Positions 6,438-16,012 of a stretch of DNA of 37,985 bases are shown here, piece by piece. The notes below the pieces were generated by a model, which was not told the DNA's origin, ran no database searches, and saw nothing but the letters and a program-made list of their open reading frames with translations. The translations under genes and the position numbers were made by a program. Source of the DNA: Thiohalomonas denitrificans (GTDB taxonomy: Bacteria > Pseudomonadota > Gammaproteobacteria > Thiohalomonadales > Thiohalomonadaceae); assembly GCF_016841685.1 (NCBI RefSeq), contig NZ_JAENYR010000031.1, positions 1-37,985 of the forward strand, written 5' to 3'. The number at the start of each line of letters is the position of its first letter. Position 1 is the stretch's first letter.

Positions 6438-7610
6438 TCAAAGACCGATGCGGTGCGCCCGTGCGGTGAAGAAGATACCGCTGGGCTTGTCCGCCGGTAG
6501 ATTGGCGATTTCCCGCCGTGTCCTGGTGTCGTAGACCCGGACAACATCTTCATCCCGCACCGACATCCATAGATGTTCACCCCGGGGAGTGAACTCCATG
6601 TGCAGGACGCCTTTGCCCGGCTTCAAGGTATCGGCAATCTGCATCGATACGGTATCGATGATCTGAACGGTATCGTTGTCCGGGAATGCGTAATTGACCC
6701 AGACCTCGCGCCCGTCGGGCCGTCCCATGACAAACACCGGCTGCCCGTGGACCTTGATGCGGTCGACTTCCTGCCAAGTGTCAACGTCAATGATCAGCAC
6801 TTCATGACGACCCACTGCCGGTACGAAGGCGTAATCGCCGGCGATCGCCCAGCCCTCCAAGTGCGGCATTTTGTAGACCGGGAGCTTCTGTTCCCCGCGG
6901 CCGTAATGGTCGAGAATGCGGCGCACGCCCTGTTCGGGATGCCACAGGTCGAGCATTGCGAGGCCATCCTCTCCAAACAGCCCGGCGATGTAATGGCGCC
7001 CATCGGGGGTAATCAGTGCATCGTAGGGTTCCCGGCCGATATCCTTGAAGCGGGTGATCTGCGGCTGGTCCGGCTGACTCAGATCCGCCACCCAGATCTC
7101 TCCGGCGTCGAACAGGCTGAAAACGAAACGCTGTCCGGGCGCATCGACCAGCCCGACTACCTTGGAGAGCTGGCCCTCTTCCCCGTAGGTCGCGGGGATA
7201 TCAGCGACCAGTTCAAGCGTACGGGCGTCGAATACCTTCACGCCCCCCGGCTCGTAGTTGGAGACGGCAACCAGGCTTCCGTCCTGGGATATGGCGCCTC
7301 CGATACTGTTGCCGGACTGAATGGTCCGCGCGGTAATGCGGCCACTAAGCATATCGACCTTGGTCAGCCCGCCGTCGCGACCGAACACATAGGCGAAACG
7401 TTCATCCCGCGAGTAGACCACCGAGGCGTGAGAGAGATCCCCGAGACCCTTGATGCGTTTCAACAGGGTCTGGTTGGTGGTTTCCACGAGCGTCAGACTG
7501 CCCGAAGCGCGCTCCACGACCACACCGAGATCGCCGGTGGCCCGTGGCGCCGCACAGCCCGCCAGCATGACCGTCAGGGCCGTTGCGAGCAGCAGTTGGT
7601 CAATTCGCAT
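6438..7610 (-). CDS. nirF: NirF, heme d1 biosynthesis lipoprotein
   Basis: This 390-residue protein begins with a lipoprotein signal whose lipobox is LAGC, with Cys19 as the acylation site. The rest is a propeller fold similar to the d1 domain of NirS but without a cytochrome c domain. NirF acts in the periplasm late in heme d1 synthesis, before NirN, and is a lipoprotein in Pseudomonas aeruginosa. The ATG at 7610 overlaps the end of nirC by 11 bases. The longer frame to 7721 has no lipoprotein signal at its start and overlaps nirC by over 100 bases, so it was rejected. Confidence 0.92.
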   Translation of the reverse strand: MRIDQLLLATALTVMLAGCAAPRATGDLGVVVERASGSLTLVETTNQTLLKRIKGLGDLSHASVVYSRDERFAYVFGRDGGLTKVDMLSGRITARTIQSGNSIGGAISQDGSLVAVSNYEPGGVKVFDARTLELVADIPATYGEEGQLSKVVGLVDAPGQRFVFSLFDAGEIWVADLSQPDQPQITRFKDIGREPYDALITPDGRHYIAGLFGEDGLAMLDLWHPEQGVRRILDHYGRGEQKLPVYKMPHLEGWAIAGDYAFVPAVGRHEVLIIDVDTWQEVDRIKVHGQPVFVMGRPDGREVWVNYAFPDNDTVQIIDTVSMQIADTLKPGKGVLHMEFTPRGEHLWMSVRDEDVVRVYDTRTRREIANLPADKPSGIFFTARAHRIGL

Positions 7611-7959
7611 CGGAGATCCCCTCTTGCAGTCTGCCAACCAGCCAGTCGGCTTCCTCTTCGGAAAGGAAGTCCTGCCATGGCGGCATCGGTGTCCCGGCCC
7701 GGCCGATGAGAATCGTAGCACGCAGCATCATCGCCGATTTGTCCTCCAGCTGTTCCGGGAGAAGGGAGGGACCCAGCCCACCCTTTAGCGTCATTCCGTG
7801 GCAGGAGCCGCAGTCGTGCTGCAGCAGATGGAGCAACTCGTCCTTGCGGTCGCCCTCCGGTTCAGTGGCCGCTGCGGAAGCGGTCATCAGGAACAGAAGT
7901 GCGACGGCGACGGCATACCAACGGCTTCGTCCAGGTTCGGGAGCTATAGCAAGTCTCAT
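7600..7959 (-). CDS. nirC: NirC-like small monoheme cytochrome c
   Basis: This 119-residue protein has a signal peptide (hydrophobic about 15-30, AxA-like end near AAA-TEP), one heme motif CGSCH at 50-54, and a probable axial Met at 92 in TPMPPW. It resembles the c domain of NirN. NirC is a periplasmic electron carrier thought to serve NirF/NirN-dependent maturation or NirS itself. The ATG at 7959 has GAGGAG eight bases upstream; that Shine-Dalgarno is formed by the last codons of the cupredoxin gene. A GTG at 7968 is possible but lies too close to that site. It lies between the cupredoxin gene and nirF. Confidence 0.88.
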   Translation of the reverse strand: MRLAIAPEPGRSRWYAVAVALLFLMTASAAATEPEGDRKDELLHLLQHDCGSCHGMTLKGGLGPSLLPEQLEDKSAMMLRATILIGRAGTPMPPWQDFLSEEEADWLVGRLQEGISDAN

Positions 7960-7964
7960 ATACT

Positions 7965-8285
7965 TCACTCCTCAACGTTGACCACTCCGGTCATCTCCGG
8001 GTGGGGCCCGCACCGGTAGGGAAATTTGCCTGCCTGGTTAAACTGGCGGGATGTACTCTCTCCCGGAAAAAAGTAATCCGACTCCGGTTCGCCCAGTTCT
8101 TCGAACCAGACGCTGTGATACTGGCGCTTCTCACGATTGACCCACTCCACGGTGTCACCTTGTTTCACCGTGATCTCCTCGGGGATAAATTGATAACCCT
8201 TGATTTCGACACGAACCGTTTCCGCTAGTGACGACCCGGCGATGAGCAGAGAGAGGAGTATCCAGTATCGGAATGCACGCACCAT
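7965..8285 (-). CDS. Periplasmic cupredoxin (type 1 blue copper protein)
   Basis: This 106-residue protein has a signal peptide (about 1-21, ending SLA-ET) and a plastocyanin/pseudoazurin-like fold. The type 1 copper ligands are all visible: His57 (QYHSVWF), then Cys92, His95 and Met98 in the CGPHPEM loop. The short spacing Cys-X2-His-X2-Met matches amicyanin/plastocyanin-type loops. It is the first gene of the heme d1 operon; the nirC start is within a few bases of its stop. An AGGGAAG ribosome site precedes the ATG. No cytochrome c551 gene (nirM) is visible here, so the cupredoxin is a good candidate donor to NirS, in the role azurin or pseudoazurin plays elsewhere. That role is inferred. 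Confidence 0.88.
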   Translation of the reverse strand: MVRAFRYWILLSLLIAGSSLAETVRVEIKGYQFIPEEITVKQGDTVEWVNREKRQYHSVWFEELGEPESDYFFPGESTSRQFNQAGKFPYRCGPHPEMTGVVNVEE

Positions 8286-8336: not shown

Positions 8337-8350
8337 ATGACATGTATCAA
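8337..8350 (-). promoter_or_regulatory. Probable FNR/DNR box upstream of the cupredoxin-nir operon
   Basis: Read on the minus strand this is TTGAT-ACAT-GTCAT, matching all but the last base of the TTGAT-N4-RTCAA pattern. Its centre is 58 bases before the cupredoxin ATG, leaving room for a class II start site about 41 bases downstream. The -10 region is weak. It resembles the sites upstream of nirS, norC and the HPP gene. Confidence 0.6.
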
Positions 8351-8389: not shown

Positions 8390-10036
8390 CTACAGCCCGA
8401 CTGCGTTGATCTCGGCCTGGGGATTGTCAAACCCGATCTTGAAACCTAGCGAAACATGGTGGAAACGGGAATCGCTGTAGTCGTCGTGGATGGCGAAACC
8501 GATGTTATAGAGCTGGTCGGAGGCCAGAGACAAGTCGCCAGGGTGGTCGGAATCAAGCTTGCGCTTCATGGTGACTATCCAGAAACCATCCACCTGTTCA
8601 GCATTGAATTCCACGCCTTGCCCACCATCCATCACCCGGTCGGACAGGATGTAGCCATCCTCGGAGACGCCGGTGCCGACATTGAAACGGAGCAGATCCA
8701 TGAAGTTCCCATCGGCAAGCAGTGCCTCAACTTCGTCATCGCTCTTGCGCTTATCCCAGCCACCACGCGGCTCACTGCGAATCGAGATATCCGTCCGCGT
8801 TTCGGCGATGTACTTGGTCACCTGTTCACCGTCGGGGGTGTCCGGCATGGAGCGGGCATCGTGGTGACAGGTCCCCCAGCAACCGGCCTGGTCGGCTTGC
8901 TCGACATCGTCGTTGGACAGCATCATAGCGAGCTTGATCGGGTTCTCCGGGTCCATCTTGCCGCCATCGACAAAGGGCACCGGTGAGTGGTCGGTCTCGG
9001 GAAAGATGAAACGCATGTAGAGATGTTCGCCATCGTGTGCAGCCTGGACATCGACGGGTATGCCCGGGCGCTTGCCGGGAATGGGGGTCTCTTCCGCCTT
9101 CTCGCCGCTTACCATCTTCGCACCCATGTCGGCCTCTTCACCTTCATGGCAATCGAGGCAACGGTCACCGGCTTTGTCGTAGACCCGGGCACCACCGTGG
9201 CGGCTGCCATTCAGAGCCCACTCCATGGACGTCTGTCCGGGATAGAAAAGCGTGATCTTGCGAGTCGGAACGGCCGCCCAGTCAGGCATTCCCTCGGAGT
9301 TACCGGACGATACCGGCGCTGCTGCAGCCGGTGCGGGTGCAGCTGCAGCTACACTGGCACCCTGCTGGCCCTGGCTTTCCTCTTCTGCCAGGAAGGTGAC
9401 CCATTCGGCCGGCAGGGGGCGGCTGTGAGAGGAGTTGGGCTCTTCCAGCCGAACCAGCTGTTCTTCATCCAGTTGATCGCGGACCGACTTGTGGGCGATA
9501 CCCTTATGACAGTCGATGCAGGTCTGCCCCTGTTCCATAGCGAAGATGTGCTGATTGCGTGAGCGTTTCTTCTGGCTTGCGGGGTTCATGGTGGACCAGT
9601 CGTGGCAATTGCGGCACTCCCGGGAGTCGCTATTTTTCATCCGCTTCCACTCGTTCATCGCAAGCTGGAGGCGTTTGGCCTCGAATTTTTCCGGCGTATT
9701 GATGCTGCCGGTCAGCTTTCCCCACAGCTCCTTCGAGGCCTGAATCTTGCGAACCATTTTGTGAACCCATGGGTCGGGGACATGGCAGTCGGAGCAAACG
9801 GCGCGGACACCGCTTCGATTATTGTAGTGAATGGTCTCTTTGTACTCCTGGTAGACGGTGTCCTCCATCTCATGACAGGAGATACAGAATTCGAGTGTAT
9901 TGGTCGCTTCCATGGCGGTATTGAAGCCGCCCCAGAAGAACACACCAATCATCATAAAAAATACGGCGCTTCCGATACTCGCGCCGAAGATAACTTTACG
10001 CGACAGCAGCCGCCGCCGATTCTCAAAATGGGCCAT
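8390..10036 (-). CDS. nirT: NapC/NirT-type tetraheme quinol dehydrogenase fused to a C-terminal diheme-like domain
   Basis: This 548-residue membrane-anchored protein has one transmembrane helix (about 14-38) and a NapC/NirT tetraheme domain with CISCH 51-55, CSDCH 81-85, CRNCH 141-145 and CIDCH 173-177. Standard NirT ends near residue 200. Here an Ala/Pro-rich linker (about 223-248) leads into a 300-residue domain resembling the cytochrome c-552/DMSO-reductase-like heme-binding (ethylbenzene dehydrogenase gamma type) fold. That domain starts with ITLFYPGQTSMEW and has CLDCH at 293-297 and a spaced CWGTCH at 386-391 (CX3CH). NirT takes electrons from quinol and passes them to periplasmic NirS. 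The extra domain could extend the electron wire. Start: ATG 10036 or GTG 10039; AAAGGAG lies 6-9 bases upstream of them. Domain identity of the C-terminal part is less sure than that of the NapC part. Confidence 0.88.
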   Translation of the reverse strand: MAHFENRRRLLSRKVIFGASIGSAVFFMMIGVFFWGGFNTAMEATNTLEFCISCHEMEDTVYQEYKETIHYNNRSGVRAVCSDCHVPDPWVHKMVRKIQASKELWGKLTGSINTPEKFEAKRLQLAMNEWKRMKNSDSRECRNCHDWSTMNPASQKKRSRNQHIFAMEQGQTCIDCHKGIAHKSVRDQLDEEQLVRLEEPNSSHSRPLPAEWVTFLAEEESQGQQGASVAAAAPAPAAAAPVSSGNSEGMPDWAAVPTRKITLFYPGQTSMEWALNGSRHGGARVYDKAGDRCLDCHEGEEADMGAKMVSGEKAEETPIPGKRPGIPVDVQAAHDGEHLYMRFIFPETDHSPVPFVDGGKMDPENPIKLAMMLSNDDVEQADQAGCWGTCHHDARSMPDTPDGEQVTKYIAETRTDISIRSEPRGGWDKRKSDDEVEALLADGNFMDLLRFNVGTGVSEDGYILSDRVMDGGQGVEFNAEQVDGFWIVTMKRKLDSDHPGDLSLASDQLYNIGFAIHDDYSDSRFHHVSLGFKIGFDNPQAEINAVGL

Positions 10037-10073
10037 CACGCCTTTCTCCTTTCAGCCGAGCAGTAGATTTTCC

Positions 10074-10130: not shown

Positions 10131-11744
10131 TCAGGTCACGTGTTCGGTGCGGTTATGGACATTGAACTTGCCCGTCGGCGCGTAGAGGCCCTTGATGCGA
10201 TCCTTCTCTTCGAGCGTGTTTGCATCGTAGATCACGATTTCGCCATTGGCCTTTTTACTATCCGACAGGTTCCAGACCGAGACCCATACTTCGCTGCCAT
10301 CGGCGTTGAACTCCATATGGACGGTAGCCTGACCCTCTTTCGTGGTCGGCCGCAGCGTCTTCACGACTTTGCGGGTCTTCTTGTCGATAACCTTGACCGA
10401 CTGCTGAACCTCCGGCTCCGGGTGTTTGGTCTGATCCGCCCAGACGTACTTGCTCTTGGGATGGGTACGGATAAACACGCCGGGACCATCGGTATTGACC
10501 GTGTAGCAGGTCTTCCAGGCCTGGTCCGGATGCCCGGCCGGGTCGTTGCCCCAGACGGTGACCTTGCCGACACCCAGGTGGGTGGTGCCGCCTACCGGAC
10601 CGCACTTGGAATCAATCCAGTTGGCGCCCGGACCCGGATGGGGCAGCTTGTCCACGTCTATGATGGCTTCCAGTTTCCGTTCCTTGCTGTCGACCACCAC
10701 CATCTGGTTGGAGGCGTTCGCCGCGATCTGGAAGTAGCGTCCGGTCGGATCGAAGAAGCCGTCATGCAGGAACTTGGAGGTATTGATCTGCTCGATACGG
10801 AGATTGTCGATATCGGTGTAGTCGACCTGCCAAATCTGACCCAGCTCCTTGGCGGCAACCAGCCAGGTCGGCGCATTGGGCGTGGTATAGATAGCAGCGA
10901 CGCGGGACTCCTCGACATAGTCACCGTCAACATTGATGCCCCGGGTGGAAACGACCTTCAGGGGCTCCATCGTCTTGGCATCGGAGATCACGAAGTGCGG
11001 GGGCCAGTAGCCGCCGCCGATCACATACTTTCCGTCGCCGGAGACCGCCACGTCGCGTGCGTCATAGGCGATTTTGTTTTCGGCAACCAGCATGTTCTCG
11101 GGCTTCTGCCAGAGATCGATCTTGGTCATCTTGCCGTCGCGACCCTGGGTGTACCAGAAGCGGCCCGGATACTCCGCCTTCTCGACGGTAGAGTGTTCCA
11201 GCGCCTTGATGACGTGAACGGCATAGCCGGTCGGAATATGGGTCAGGACCTCCTTGGTGTCACCGTCGATAACAGCCACTTTGCCGACGTCACGCTCAAT
11301 CACCACGAAGAAGTTCTCCCAGTTGCGGCCGTGCAGCGGCTTGGTGGGATAATCCTCCGGTTTGACGTGGACCTTCCAGTGTTTTTTCATCTGCGCCAGC
11401 GACATCTCCGGCGGCTCGGGCACGTCCATCTGGATGTAGGTGGCAAGCAGTTTGATCTCATCCTTGGAAAGGATATTGTCAAAGTTGTTCATGCCACCTT
11501 CGGTACCCCAGGTGATGATCTTTTCCAGGCGTTTCTGACCCTTTTCGCGGGTATCCGCGGGTTCGAGGCCCTTGCCCGTGGCCCCCTTGCGAAGAACGCC
11601 GTGACAACCGGCGCATTGCTCAAAGTAGACCTGTTTGGCTTTTTCGAAATCAGCCTCGGAAAGCGTGGGCTTAGCGACGGCAGAGCCGGCTACAGCCATA
11701 CCCATTGCGAGGCTGATTGCAGATAGTGTGAAACGGACTTGCAT
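10131..11744 (-). CDS. nirS: NirS, cytochrome cd1 nitrite reductase
   Basis: This 537-residue periplasmic enzyme reduces nitrite to nitric oxide. It has a signal peptide (cleavage after AVA near 24), a cytochrome c domain with CAGCH at 44-48 and probable axial Met85 (GGMNNF), and the eight-bladed d1 propeller. His177 (YAVHVIK) is the expected d1-iron ligand. His327 (FLHDGF) and His369 (LPHPGPG) match the catalytic histidine pair. Length and motifs are those of a functional NirS. It is monocistronic or nearly so, with an FNR/DNR palindrome 92 bases upstream of the ATG, an AGGGGAA ribosome site and a strong terminator downstream. Confidence 0.97.
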   Translation of the reverse strand: MQVRFTLSAISLAMGMAVAGSAVAKPTLSEADFEKAKQVYFEQCAGCHGVLRKGATGKGLEPADTREKGQKRLEKIITWGTEGGMNNFDNILSKDEIKLLATYIQMDVPEPPEMSLAQMKKHWKVHVKPEDYPTKPLHGRNWENFFVVIERDVGKVAVIDGDTKEVLTHIPTGYAVHVIKALEHSTVEKAEYPGRFWYTQGRDGKMTKIDLWQKPENMLVAENKIAYDARDVAVSGDGKYVIGGGYWPPHFVISDAKTMEPLKVVSTRGINVDGDYVEESRVAAIYTTPNAPTWLVAAKELGQIWQVDYTDIDNLRIEQINTSKFLHDGFFDPTGRYFQIAANASNQMVVVDSKERKLEAIIDVDKLPHPGPGANWIDSKCGPVGGTTHLGVGKVTVWGNDPAGHPDQAWKTCYTVNTDGPGVFIRTHPKSKYVWADQTKHPEPEVQQSVKVIDKKTRKVVKTLRPTTKEGQATVHMEFNADGSEVWVSVWNLSDSKKANGEIVIYDANTLEEKDRIKGLYAPTGKFNVHNRTEHVT

Positions 11745-12193
11745 GGTTATTCCCCTTTTGGTCGTGCTAGTGATAACGGATGGAAATACCCTCTTTTCTG
11801 TAGGACAGTTTTAATCCCGTTCTTGATCTCCGGCATTGATCTGCATCAAGGGTCACAAATTTTTTCCGACAACGGTTAAAACAGGAACGAATACAGCATG
11901 ATGTGGTTGGGTTTTTTTTCCAAGTGGTACGAAAGGTCGGTTAGGCGGCATTGAGTCTGTTTATAACTTCGGATCAAAATTGCTGATTATTACAAACGAC
12001 CGGCCGAATGATAGCCGTTGGATGTAGGCGCCGAGGAATTGAGAGATCCGTCTGGAGGATTTGACGAGGGGGAAAGGAGAGAAGCAGTTACTCAAAATGA
12101 GAAAAACGGCCGTGGCCAGGTTCCCGATCCGGGGGTTCTGCAACGGGATTGACCTGATTGGCCACGACCGCGAAGCGAAGTTCAGGTTAATGG
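11745..12193. other. Intergenic region between norB and nirS
   Basis: This gap has no convincing gene. Its left part is the nirS leader, with the FNR/DNR box at 11836-11849 and a -10-like TAAAAC (minus strand, 11813-11808) placed for a start site near 11801. The rest, from about 11870 to 12190, shows only an 87-codon open frame on the minus strand, which has no family features and looks like chance. Confidence 0.6.
11836..11849 (-). promoter_or_regulatory. FNR/DNR box of nirS
   Basis: TTGAT-CTGC-ATCAA is a perfect match to the FNR/DNR/ANR palindrome. The centre is 98 bases from the nirS ATG. A TAAAAC hexamer lies where a class II promoter would have its -10, predicting a leader of about 56 bases. 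This points to activation of nirS under low oxygen and nitrogen oxides. Confidence 0.85.
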
Positions 12194-12230: not shown

Positions 12231-13649
<1,419 letters not shown>

Positions 13650-14084
13650 TTAGCCCTGGATATTCGGCGGCCAGCCGGCGGCGTTGATTTCCGATGCGTA
13701 TTTCAGAAAGTCAGCCAGGCCATCCAATTCTTCTTCAGAGAGGTTGAACTGGGGCATGGAGCGGCGCCCGGGAATGCCGTCCGCAGGCCGACCGGCGATG
13801 AAGGCCTTGAGGGCCAGCTTGCTCTCGCCGAAGCGGTTATAGACATTGACCAGTTCCGGGGCGAAATAGGCACCCTCTCCCATCAGCGTGTGGCAGCCGA
13901 GGCAGTTGTTATCCTCCCAAACCTTTTTGCCGAGTGCGACTGACGGCGTGATATTGTGCCGGTTGTCACGTTCGGGCAGGGTTTGAACGGTATCGAAAGA
14001 TAGAGCCAGGAACAGGAGAATGAAGAAAACACTTCCCCCCAGATAGATATTCCTGGCCATGCTTTTGGTGAAGGTTTCACTCAT
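13650..14084 (-). CDS. norC: NorC, nitric oxide reductase cytochrome c subunit
   Basis: This 144-residue protein has an uncleaved N-terminal membrane anchor (about 12-31) and a periplasmic monoheme cytochrome c domain with CLGCH at about 61-65 and a likely axial Met in RRSMPQF. It takes electrons from soluble carriers and feeds the NorB active site. It is the first gene of the norCB pair, under an FNR-type palindrome centred 71 bases before its ATG. Confidence 0.96.
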   Translation of the reverse strand: MSETFTKSMARNIYLGGSVFFILLFLALSFDTVQTLPERDNRHNITPSVALGKKVWEDNNCLGCHTLMGEGAYFAPELVNVYNRFGESKLALKAFIAGRPADGIPGRRSMPQFNLSEEELDGLADFLKYASEINAAGWPPNIQG

Positions 14085-14148
14085 GACAGGCCCCCTTCGG
14101 GATGATGGACGGTGAAGCTATTAAGCGATATTACCGAGGTTGGTCGCC

Positions 14149-14162
14149 TTGACCTGAGTCAA
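14149..14162 (-). promoter_or_regulatory. FNR/DNR box of norCB
   Basis: TTGAC-CTGA-GTCAA is a perfect palindrome of the FNR/DNR class, centred 71 bases from the norC ATG. AT-rich TTAATA on the minus strand near 14118-14124 could serve as the -10. A match to this class with C/G at the inner positions is common among DNR sites. Confidence 0.8.
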
Positions 14163-14241
14163 AACATCAGGAATCAACACGCTCCGACGACGCTCCGGGC
14201 TCTGTCAGGATACCGGGAAGCAGTGCTTGCGCGGTAGTACC

Positions 14242-15474
14242 TCAGATAGGAGCCGGTGAGCGCGAGGCGTTGGTGAATACCCTTTTGAGGGCAGCGTCGG
14301 TTTGCCCCTGCGTATGCAGGGAGCCGGTATAGAGTGCGGCGATAAGATCCGACTGAGTGATCATGCCCACCAGCCGGTAGTCACGGTCGACCACGGGCAG
14401 ATTATGATAGCCGGCGTCGGAGAGCAGCGGGACCACCTCGGTAATATGCATATCCGAGTCCACGGTGAGTACCGGTCGCGCCATGATGTCGCCAACGCTG
14501 CGCGGCCCTTTGGAAGAGACCGGCAGGGTGCGCCGAATGAAGTGCACCAGCCTCTCATCGAACCCACGATAGGTTTTCAGGTCCACTGGCTTCAAGACAT
14601 CTACCAGTGTCAGGATACCAATGACGTGGCGGGCTTCGTCAATCACCGGGAGGGCCTTTACCTTGTGGTGACGCAACATTGCCCAGGCCTTTTCGACCTC
14701 GGTATCGATTCTGGCGGTAATCAGATCCCGCGACATAATGTCTTCACAGGTGATCTCGCCCATGCGGCGCCGATAGGCCTGAGCTCCGGCCATCCGATAG
14801 ATACGATTGAGATCCTCTTCACTCACATCGAGATAGATGTCGAGATCCATCAAAGCCTGATGGAGATCCCCGTGAGTAATGCCGATGCGATCCAGCGAGG
14901 GCGGGTCGTAGCGATCGTGAATGAGGTTCCCGGGCTCGTAGGGCTTGGCCGGATAGCGCCGCCCGAATACGAGGATATTGATCATCATTCCGGCTGCCAG
15001 CAGTACCAACACGTTCACGGCTACCGGGGCGATCACGAACGCGAAACCGGCCTCTCTGACCGAATCACCCAGGACCACGGGAAGCAGGGCAGCAGCGCCC
15101 CCGGGTGGGTGCAGGGTGTGGGTCAGAAACATCGCCAGAATGGAAAGGGAGACCGCCACGGCCGCCGCCAGCACCGGCTCGGAAATCCAGAGGCAGGCGG
15201 CCACGCCGATGGATGCCGATATAAGGTGGGAACCCACCAGCGGCCAGGGTTGGGATAGTGGGCTGCCCGGCAGGGCGAAAGTCAGTACGGCGGAGGCCCC
15301 CATGGAGGCCGCGACGAACGGCAGGGCCGACGCCGGCAACATGAAGCTGCTGATGCCGGTGACGGCCAGCATGCCAATGAAGGCGGCGAACGTGCTGCGG
15401 ACGATCTCGTTGCCGCTGACCTGAACCGGCTCGGGCACAAGATAACGCAACAGCCTGCGGGGGAGCATGGGCAT
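14242..15474 (-). CDS. HPP-family membrane protein with C-terminal CBS pair
   Basis: This 410-residue protein has an N-terminal membrane domain (about 25-172, four to six helices) containing the family signature HPPGGA at 122-127. A linker follows, then two CBS domains (about 244-296 and 327-383, each with an IMxRD/IMARP start and a VIGILT or LVGMIT core). Members of the HPP family transport nitrite in cyanobacteria and plant chloroplasts. CBS pairs usually bind adenine nucleotides and gate transport. It sits upstream of norCB on the same strand with its own FNR/DNR box, so co-expression with denitrification is likely. A nitrite channel or exporter is the favoured but unproven role. A second ATG at 15468 is possible. 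Confidence 0.87.
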   Translation of the reverse strand: MPMLPRRLLRYLVPEPVQVSGNEIVRSTFAAFIGMLAVTGISSFMLPASALPFVAASMGASAVLTFALPGSPLSQPWPLVGSHLISASIGVAACLWISEPVLAAAVAVSLSILAMFLTHTLHPPGGAAALLPVVLGDSVREAGFAFVIAPVAVNVLVLLAAGMMINILVFGRRYPAKPYEPGNLIHDRYDPPSLDRIGITHGDLHQALMDLDIYLDVSEEDLNRIYRMAGAQAYRRRMGEITCEDIMSRDLITARIDTEVEKAWAMLRHHKVKALPVIDEARHVIGILTLVDVLKPVDLKTYRGFDERLVHFIRRTLPVSSKGPRSVGDIMARPVLTVDSDMHITEVVPLLSDAGYHNLPVVDRDYRLVGMITQSDLIAALYTGSLHTQGQTDAALKRVFTNASRSPAPI

Positions 15475-15548
15475 GACTATCCCTTAAGAGGTAACACTTT
15501 GTGGTTAGAGGCGAGGCGGGATTGTCCCGGCGCGGAGCGTTGGCCACC

Positions 15549-15562
15549 TTGATTGAAGTCAA
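15549..15562 (-). promoter_or_regulatory. FNR/DNR box upstream of the HPP-CBS gene
   Basis: TTGAT (15549-15553), TGAA and GTCAA (15558-15562) form an FNR/DNR-class site; the minus-strand reading is TTGAC-TTCA-ATCAA. Its centre is 81 bases from the HPP ATG, and GACAAT on the minus strand at 15526-15521 lies exactly where a -10 is expected. The divergent gene starting at 15683 is 120 bases away and could also be affected. Confidence 0.78.
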
Positions 15563-15682
15563 TTTTTATCGGATTGTTAAGCTCTTCAGCTGTTCGTACC
15601 CGGGGCCGCTCACCAGGTGCTGCTCCGCGATCCCGATCGCAGGCAATAAGAATCGCTCAACTACCCGGAATGGAGTAACCCC

Positions 15683-16012
15683 TTGGACTCTACCGCTGCA
15701 AATGGTCAGTCGCTGAAAAAACTACTCACCGCGGTTTACGCCCTGCAGGCGCTTTCCTTTCTGTTTCCGGTGGCTTTCATCGTCGGCGTGGTGCTCGATT
15801 ACGTGAAACGCGGCGAGGCAACGGATGCCTGGCTCGCCAGCCATTTTCGCTGGCAGATCCGTACCTTCTGGTTTGCGGTTGTCTGGTCTCTGGTGGGGGG
15901 CCTCACCACCGGAATCGGGATCGGCCTGCTCATCCTTTTCGCAACGGCCGTTTGGCTGATTTACCGCATCACCAGGGGCTGGCTGAATCTCTCGGATGGC
16001 AAAGCGGTTTAA
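15683..16012 (+). CDS. Small DUF4870-like membrane protein
   Basis: This 109-residue protein has a hydrophobic helix at about 16-40, the segment HFRWQIRTFWF characteristic of DUF4870-like proteins, and a second long hydrophobic stretch at about 66-96 ending in IYRITRGW. It would lie in the inner membrane. Its function is unknown. The start is a TTG at 15683, with GGAG about eight bases upstream; no in-frame ATG allows the whole conserved domain. It is divergent from the HPP gene. Confidence 0.75.
   Translation: MDSTAANGQSLKKLLTAVYALQALSFLFPVAFIVGVVLDYVKRGEATDAWLASHFRWQIRTFWFAVVWSLVGGLTTGIGIGLLILFATAVWLIYRITRGWLNLSDGKAV

Follow-up and report, generated by a model that had tools for sequence, protein, structure and literature searches.

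A TM_HPP–CBS membrane protein gene beside norCB in Thiohalomonas, a putative DNR-type regulon and minority linkage to nitrogen-oxide genes elsewhere

INTRODUCTION

The crossing of the denitrifier inner membrane by nitrite is usually credited to NarK and NirC. Outside the denitrifiers, nitrite carriage has been associated with HPP proteins. In the available part of PMC4137279 the HPP protein AtNITR2;1 is described as carrying nitrite, with a Km of 13 µM, in the cyanobacterial mutant NA4; in that of PMC7438415 HPP proteins are also credited with nitrite activity, and two HPP genes of Kuenenia go up when nitrite is limiting. The protein considered here (HPP-CBS) is like AtNITR2;1 and the cyanobacterial HPP proteins in family (by published name for the latter two; PF04982 membership was checked for HPP-CBS alone) and in its nitrite context. 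As far as the available text describes them, those proteins take up nitrite into chloroplasts and cyanobacterial cells, whereas HPP-CBS has a fused CBS pair and stands in a context of NO and denitrification. The plant and cyanobacterial HPP nitrite transporters are not known to have CBS domains.

The HPP gene Ddes_0524 of D. desulfuricans lies in the hcpR1-wrbA-nimA operon and, in the excerpted part of PMC5701242, is up with NO (value 1.75, adjusted P 0.007). It thus shares an operon with a NO-responsive regulator of the Crp/Fnr type; its host is a sulfate reducer. In the portion of their paper available, Rodionov et al. (PMC1274295) proposed narK-like nitrite extrusion in NsrR regulons and placed NnrS and DnrN/YtfE among the accessory genes of NsrR, NorR and DNR regulons across bacteria; leaving aside the contents of Table 1, the available text has no HPP, CBS or COG3448. 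Neither NnrS, a haem-copper membrane protein, nor YtfE, a repair protein, is a proposed carrier, unlike HPP-CBS.

A literature search, mostly at the level of listed titles, found no link of HPP-CBS to denitrification or NO regulons, and a search for COG3448, the presumed family number, gave only titles on unrelated subjects. The label ‘hpp’ stands for pyrophosphatases or ion pumps in the available parts of PMC4949241, PMC6710368, PMC9927469 and PMC11212195, and there is no mention of HPP in that of PMC8510549.

RESULTS

The HPP-CBS gene and its product

The window (the whole stretch of 37 985 nt that was analysed) is contig C80 of the source genome, G000, of 3.79 Mb. According to open reading frames and Pfam, its minus strand carries, in this order, HPP-CBS, norC, norB, nirS, a NapC/NirT–EB_dh fusion and a cupredoxin gene. 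The HPP-CBS gene (14242–15474, minus strand), defined by its open reading frame and Pfam matches, encodes 410 amino acids. The sequence-only reading had described it as an HPP membrane domain with a CBS pair directly upstream of norCB, and the ORF map and Pfam bear this out. In the sister species (genome G001) the ortholog has 90% identity.

The TM_HPP domain (14950–15420, minus strand; residues 19–175, Pfam E=1.8e-43) scores 148.3 bits against the PF04982 profile, with a curated cut-off of 27.2, and the HPP motif itself (H122, P123, P124) is invariant across 74 aligned rows. It is followed by a helical linker, predicted to be cytosolic (14761–14898, minus strand; residues 193–238), which resembles a stretch present in many HPP proteins without CBS. 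The CBS pair, or Bateman module (14320–14754, minus strand; residues 241–385), is matched in two stretches (E=2.9e-28; 98.4 bits, cut-off 24). Its two signatures, GILTLVD at 286–292 and GMITQSD at 370–376, both match G-h-h-T-x-x-D (G-x-x-T-x-x-D), which we take to be the nucleotide-binding motif of CBS domains; G286, D292, G370 and D376 are invariant in 16 aligned rows.

The Pfam search of the protein matched TM_HPP and CBS alone. With no match to FNT (FocA/NirC) or to NarK/MFS, HPP-CBS differs from NarK and NirC/FocA, with which it would be expected to share a task, the transport of nitrite through the inner membrane. ClC, MgtE and CorB/CNNM likewise combine a membrane domain with a cytosolic CBS pair, but the membrane domain of HPP-CBS has no Pfam match to theirs.

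Structure models

The AlphaFold model of residues 1–185 (pLDDT 93.8, pTM 0.86) has six predicted helices within residues 21–169, the HPP motif opening the fifth; the full-length model is weaker (pLDDT 77, pTM 0.46). The HPP family is given four transmembrane segments in the available part of PMC7438415, and some of the six modelled helices may be half-helices.

When solved structures were searched by sequence, the 60 chains considered, of 147 matching, all matched the CBS part and none the membrane domain. Foldseek with the full model gave, in the 50 matches considered, CBS proteins or CBS-bearing carriers, including MtCorB and MgtE; with the membrane domain alone it gave no solved relative (best E 0.98). 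Among the longest alignments of the membrane domain were those to the anion channel AtALMT1 (7voj and 7vq3; Z 6.9 and 6.6 over 139 and 147 residues, rmsd 4.4 and 4.5), for which Foldseek gave E of 2.3 or more, a level of similarity that may reflect a common helical arrangement only. The VIA structure matches as a group (AtALMT1, RND pumps, Rnf/Nqr subunits), all with Z <8, were taken as giving no result. A search for an internal repeat in the membrane domain gave no signal.

Neighbouring genes and genome setting

Downstream of HPP-CBS, all on the minus strand, lie norC (13650–14084; by position and homology), norB (12231–13637; Pfam and homology), nirS for cytochrome cd1 nitrite reductase (10131–11744; Pfam and homology), a fusion of a NapC/NirT cytochrome with an EB_dh haem domain (8390–10039; Pfam) and a cupredoxin, a possible electron donor (7965–8285; Pfam). 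A Ruegeria plasmid island has nirS likewise followed by a NapC/NirT cytochrome and a cupredoxin.

Two narG genes are present in the source genome (on C54 and C70). The one on C70 is adjoined by two NarK-like genes, both scoring under the curated cut-off, and the genome also has one FocA/NirC gene. HPP-CBS is thus not the sole candidate nitrite carrier, and the earlier suggestion that an HPP protein takes over from NarK here is at odds with this gene content.

Promoter, FNR/DNR boxes and regulator

The FNR/DNR-type palindrome that had been noticed in the HPP-CBS promoter (15549–15562) was confirmed: it reads TTGATTGAAGTCAA, with one mismatch to TTGATnnnnATCAA. In the sister species the gene order, both half-sites (TTGATTGGAGTCAA) and the spacing are kept, while the spacer differs. 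The consensus of DNR is given as CTTGATnnnnATCAAG in the available part of PMC1274295.

At 22 nt after the box there is a −10-like hexamer, GACAAT (15521–15526, minus strand), so that the centre of the box would fall at about −41.5 from the predicted start. FNR-type activators bind at this distance in class II promoters. The promoter had been credited with a well-placed −10 of its own; the placement holds, but the hexamer agrees with just 4 of the 6 letters of TATAAT, which makes it weak, and a simple sigma-70 scan of 13600–15800 found no promoter. The sister species has GAAAAT at this position.

Other genes of the cluster are preceded by boxes as well. The one before nirS (11836–11849) is a perfect FNR/DNR match; the one before norC (14149–14162) has two mismatches and is identical in the sister species, which suggests a norC promoter separate from that of HPP-CBS; and a box-like site before the cupredoxin gene (8337–8350) has two mismatches, one in the sister species. 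The window contains 3 boxes with at most one mismatch (0.63 expected; a count of 3 came up in 1 of 100 shuffles) and 17 with at most two (8.5 expected; none of 100 shuffles reached 17). A further one-mismatch FNR-type site, at 7450–7463 inside ORF 6438–7721, may be due to chance. The promoters of HPP-CBS (15535–15562) and norC (14135–14162) have in common a longer stretch, TTGACT-N4-TCAAGG-YG-R-CCAAC, and its extension beyond the box points to promoter duplication or an additional half-site.

As to the regulator, a Crp/Fnr protein encoded on C52 of the source genome has 41% identity to the regulator of the nos/nor island of G077. It is without an N-terminal Cys cluster, which makes DNR likelier than FNR; the name DNR is given here by context and similarity, with no curated model above its cut-off. 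HPP-CBS very probably belongs to a DNR-type regulon of its own genus, under putative DNR control, together with norCB and nirS.

Linkage to norCB and nirS

We examined flanks of up to 10 kb per side around the best 80 named relatives among the matches listed. NorB, NorC or NirS was encoded in none of the 80; a cupredoxin-like gene was seen in four, and no other marker of a five-marker list. Among the genomes examined HPP-CBS is directly beside norCB in its own genus only.

Genomes with norB were collected from a phylum sample (67 of 398, E≤1e-40) and a class sample (61 of 369, E≤1e-120). TM_HPP was found in 38 of 66 genomes made up of 65 of the 67 phylum-sample norB genomes and the sister species (G364 and G390, with weak norB matches, were omitted), and in 39 of 57 class-sample norB genomes, these being the ones, of 61, not already covered. 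Outside the own genus norB was within 30 kb of an HPP gene in 3 of 75 genomes with both (G350, G416 and G034), with about one genome expected under random placement, as worked out by hand; nirS was in the HPP locus in G034 and G350 only, of 93 loci. HPP-CBS also occurs in genomes with no norB match (G222, G412, G180, G236 and G315).

Boxes with at most one mismatch were found in 12 of 200 HPP upstream regions, a set that includes near-duplicate loci and the sister species, versus 40 of 1398 upstreams of other genes (about twofold), while perfect boxes were in 0 of 200 versus 7 of 1398. We therefore rejected norCB linkage as a trait of the HPP-CBS family, the 0 of 80 ruling it out, and found the FNR/DNR box as a trait of the HPP family unsupported by the 12 of 200 versus 40 of 1398.

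Linkage to a wider set of nitrogen-oxide genes

With a wider list of markers (nar, nir, nor, nos, nnrS, hmp, norR, ytfE, hcp, norV and cupredoxin) we observed a marker in 10 of 93 HPP loci of the norB set, in 2 of 80 named loci and in none of 40 control windows, the latter taken at round coordinates from 16 complete norB chromosomes only. In norB genomes outside the own genus, markers were near 5 of 23 HPP-CBS genes versus 1 of 64 CBS-less HPP genes, where a gene was classed as CBS-bearing, by an automatic rule, if its own strand encoded CBS no more than 900 bp further downstream; Fisher P=0.004, and P=0.005 for HPP-CBS versus the control windows. From this comparison L217, L269 and L270 were dropped (membrane domain without tblastn match), as were L142, L207 and L208, belonging to the own genus, two of these three with markers. 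L235 and L249 were not counted, since their norQ/cbbQ-like and norR-like matches are prone to paralogues; with them the CBS-less count becomes 3 of 64. The five linked loci include two of one genus (G350 and G077), one where neighbouring ORFs encode HPP and CBS separately (G034) and one with an in-frame stop (G228). L166 was counted through its cupredoxin, its nos neighbours being read from ORFs.

Within 3 kb, markers were found for 6 of 103 HPP-CBS genes (3 of 80 named and 3 of 23 from the norB set) versus 0 of 120 control points, all lying in the 40 control windows (P=0.009); the nsrR marker was added here after locus L078 had been seen, and without it the count is 5 of 103, P ∼0.02 by hand. 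The other 77 of the 80 named relatives have no nitrogen-oxide neighbour at this distance. Shifted windows of the same loci had markers in 5 of 31 cases in the norB set, versus 3 of 23 for the near window; as they match as often, a part of the norB-set signal is membership in an island and not operon pairing. In the named set 1 of 128 shifted windows had markers, and CBS-less HPP genes gave 1 of 64 near and 1 of 93 shifted. Among annotated plasmid copies of HPP-CBS, with flanks of 5–12 kb, 2 of 13 were in a nitrogen-oxide context and 11 were not; one more plasmid record, the fourteenth, is unannotated at this locus.

On a tree of 108 HPP-CBS proteins, with 11 rows labelled as linked (two from the own genus; G034 absent), the linked state needs seven changes, at least five of them on supported branches. 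On average shuffled labels need 10.6, and none of 500 shuffles needed as few as seven. Linked proteins are clustered on the tree, and so the cases are not all independent.

Taken together, these comparisons of gene neighbourhoods support a recurrent linkage of HPP-CBS to nitrogen-oxide genes in a minority of cases. A count of nirS/norCB neighbours and of the same box across genomes had been proposed; what stands is the minority link, while neither norCB/nirS nor the box goes with the family.

Individual linked loci

In Ideonella dechloratans norR is divergent from an hmpA-HPP-CBS pair that overlaps by 4 bp, and the norR-hmpA gap has three NorR-type GT-N7-AC sites (GTCATCGTGAC, GTGGCGATGAC and GTCAAGCTGAC), GT-N7-AC being the NorR core in the available part of PMC1274295. 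Single NorR-type sites within 400 bp before HPP genes were seen in 1 of 200 cases versus 6 of 1398 for other genes.

In Pseudoroseomonas wenyumeiae an Rrf2 gene overlaps HPP-CBS and is divergent from hmp. The Rrf2-HPP-CBS pair is preceded by the palindrome AAGATGTA-N7-TACATCTT, with zero mismatches to what we take to be the NsrR consensus. For the Rrf2 protein the RirA and NsrR models give similar scores, both under the cut-off, so that the description ‘NsrR-like’ rests on context. NsrR-type sites with up to four mismatches (28 of 200 versus 52 of 1398) were set aside, since many of them come from related loci that have the site at one shared position adjoining the start codon; the zero-mismatch L078 site alone was used. 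A Zoogloeaceae MAG has an NsrR-like gene convergent with HPP-CBS.

Other loci are richer in denitrification genes. In G077 and G350 HPP-CBS is situated between nir or dnr/ytfE/norR genes and nnrS-nos, with a LysR gene adjoining. In the nor-nir-nnrS-nos island of G350 it is present in tandem duplicate (L164, 17384–19825), and in the island of G077 a CZB-domain chemoreceptor gene adjoins HPP-CBS and an SDR gene (L168, 10902–12020). HPP-CBS is the third gene after narI in G402 and is divergent from nnrS in G228, the copy with the broken frame. G034 has genes for LysR, a DsrC-like protein (Pfam DsrC), HPP and CBS as separate genes, and then nirS. In a Burkholderiales MAG HPP-CBS adjoins two ytfE-like genes and is more distant from narK and narG; Jiella pelagia has nosDFYL, an FMN transferase gene, a pseudoazurin gene and HPP-CBS.

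The copies linked to hmp, norR or NsrR-like genes have no nir or nor gene in the flanks examined. With such NO-detoxification genes as neighbours, the linked copies are better united by the NO response than by denitrification.

DISCUSSION

Proposed function

Starting from the domains, the promoter anatomy, the conservation in one sister species and the recurrent linkage, all of which are read directly from sequence, we tentatively favour a reading in which HPP-CBS is a nucleotide-sensing carrier or channel for nitrogen oxyanions, probably nitrite, placed under whichever NO-responsive regulator is at hand; this we regard as approaching an even possibility. The protein would sit in the inner membrane, with nitrite as the most likely cargo by analogy with the cyanobacterial and plant HPP proteins, and its cytosolic CBS pair, from which we infer nucleotide sensing, would respond to an adenine nucleotide and tie the flux to the energy state of the cell. 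In the own genus the NO-responsive activator DNR, whose control of HPP-CBS is likewise putative, would switch the gene on with norCB and nirS. When NO appears, HPP-CBS would then move nitrite coming from NarG across the membrane, and the reduction to NO would stay periplasmic, with NirS and NorCB. This flow of nitrite out of the cytosol is the weakest step and should be taken as a guess. In relatives linked to hmp the protein would move nitrate or nitrite that arises from NO oxidation. Elsewhere NorR-hmpA (Ideonella), NsrR-like/hmp (Pseudoroseomonas) or islands of nar, nir and nos genes would have captured the gene.

In a broader and more doubtful form of this proposal HPP-CBS would be an overlooked accessory gene of the NO response, comparable with nnrS and dnrN: an energy-gated channel for nitrogen oxyanions that keeps nitrite and NO chemistry periplasmic and has been recruited repeatedly by unrelated NO sensors (DNR, NorR and NsrR-like Rrf2 proteins, with an HPP gene under HcpR1). 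If true, denitrifiers would have a second, unrelated nitrite carrier, NO-switched and with a nucleotide-sensing module; there would be an added control point for the build-up of nitrite and NO, and hence for N2O release; and the nitrite carriers of plants and cyanobacteria would be joined to bacterial NO defence.

Other readings

It is rather unlikely, though worth serious consideration, that the cargo is another one, such as a small anion, a thiol or a metal species moved under reductive, low-oxygen or nitrosative stress, with nitrite activity being a trait of the cyanobacterial HPP subfamily. Most copies examined are in contexts that have nothing of nitrogen in them: in Paraburkholderia a chloride-channel gene is one gene away from HPP-CBS, in P. 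nitroreducens ccoN and a Crp/Fnr gene are near it, and CBS-less HPP genes are found beside LysR genes, in G034 with the Pfam DsrC protein as well. The links of HPP-CBS to NO regulators speak for nitrogen oxyanions instead, as does the nitrite activity tested in the HPP family according to the available parts of PMC4137279 and PMC7438415.

We consider it improbable that HPP-CBS is an exporter or importer of nitrite specific for denitrification that pairs with NirS and NorCB, as the sequence-only reading had it. Membership in a putative DNR regulon with norCB and nirS remains of this idea, and the gene order and boxes in the own genus, the position of HPP-CBS inside the nir-nnrS-nos islands of G350 and G077 and the separate HPP and CBS genes adjoining nirS in G034 agree with it. 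The pairing with norCB, however, is confined to the own genus and absent around the 80 nearest named relatives, where nirS is missing too; copies that neighbour hmp, norR or NsrR-like genes lack nir and nor in the flanks examined; and the source genome already possesses its NarK-like and FocA/NirC genes.

Little credence can be given to HPP-CBS as a general stress membrane protein that came by chance to lie in nitrogen-oxide islands and has no role there, for although linkage is limited to a minority and large islands make chance inclusion possible, the gene has a conserved class-II-type box of its own in its own genus, markers were near only 1 of 64 CBS-less HPP genes and absent from the control windows, and there are two tight pairings, with hmp or with an NsrR-like gene.

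Other HPP loci

A second HPP gene of the source genome, without CBS, is on C109 beside a LysR gene and a DsrC-like gene; in the counterpart of this locus in the sister species a second nirS lies past the LysR gene. An arrangement of LysR divergent from a DsrC-like gene followed by CBS-less HPP is seen in L001 (92–2211; the C109 locus of G000), L207 (8286–10407) and L227 (9643–11559). A LysR gene beside HPP is kept in several families, with nirS adjoining once and CBS as a separate ORF once. In two genomes of one family HPP is divergent from a ferredoxin-reductase-like gene that is followed by an NsrR-like gene (L264, 8035–10526, and L261, 3464–5946). On a Comamonadaceae plasmid (L185, 14928–15488), not counted as linked, an annotated haem NO-binding domain gene and EAL-domain genes are about 4 kb from HPP-CBS.
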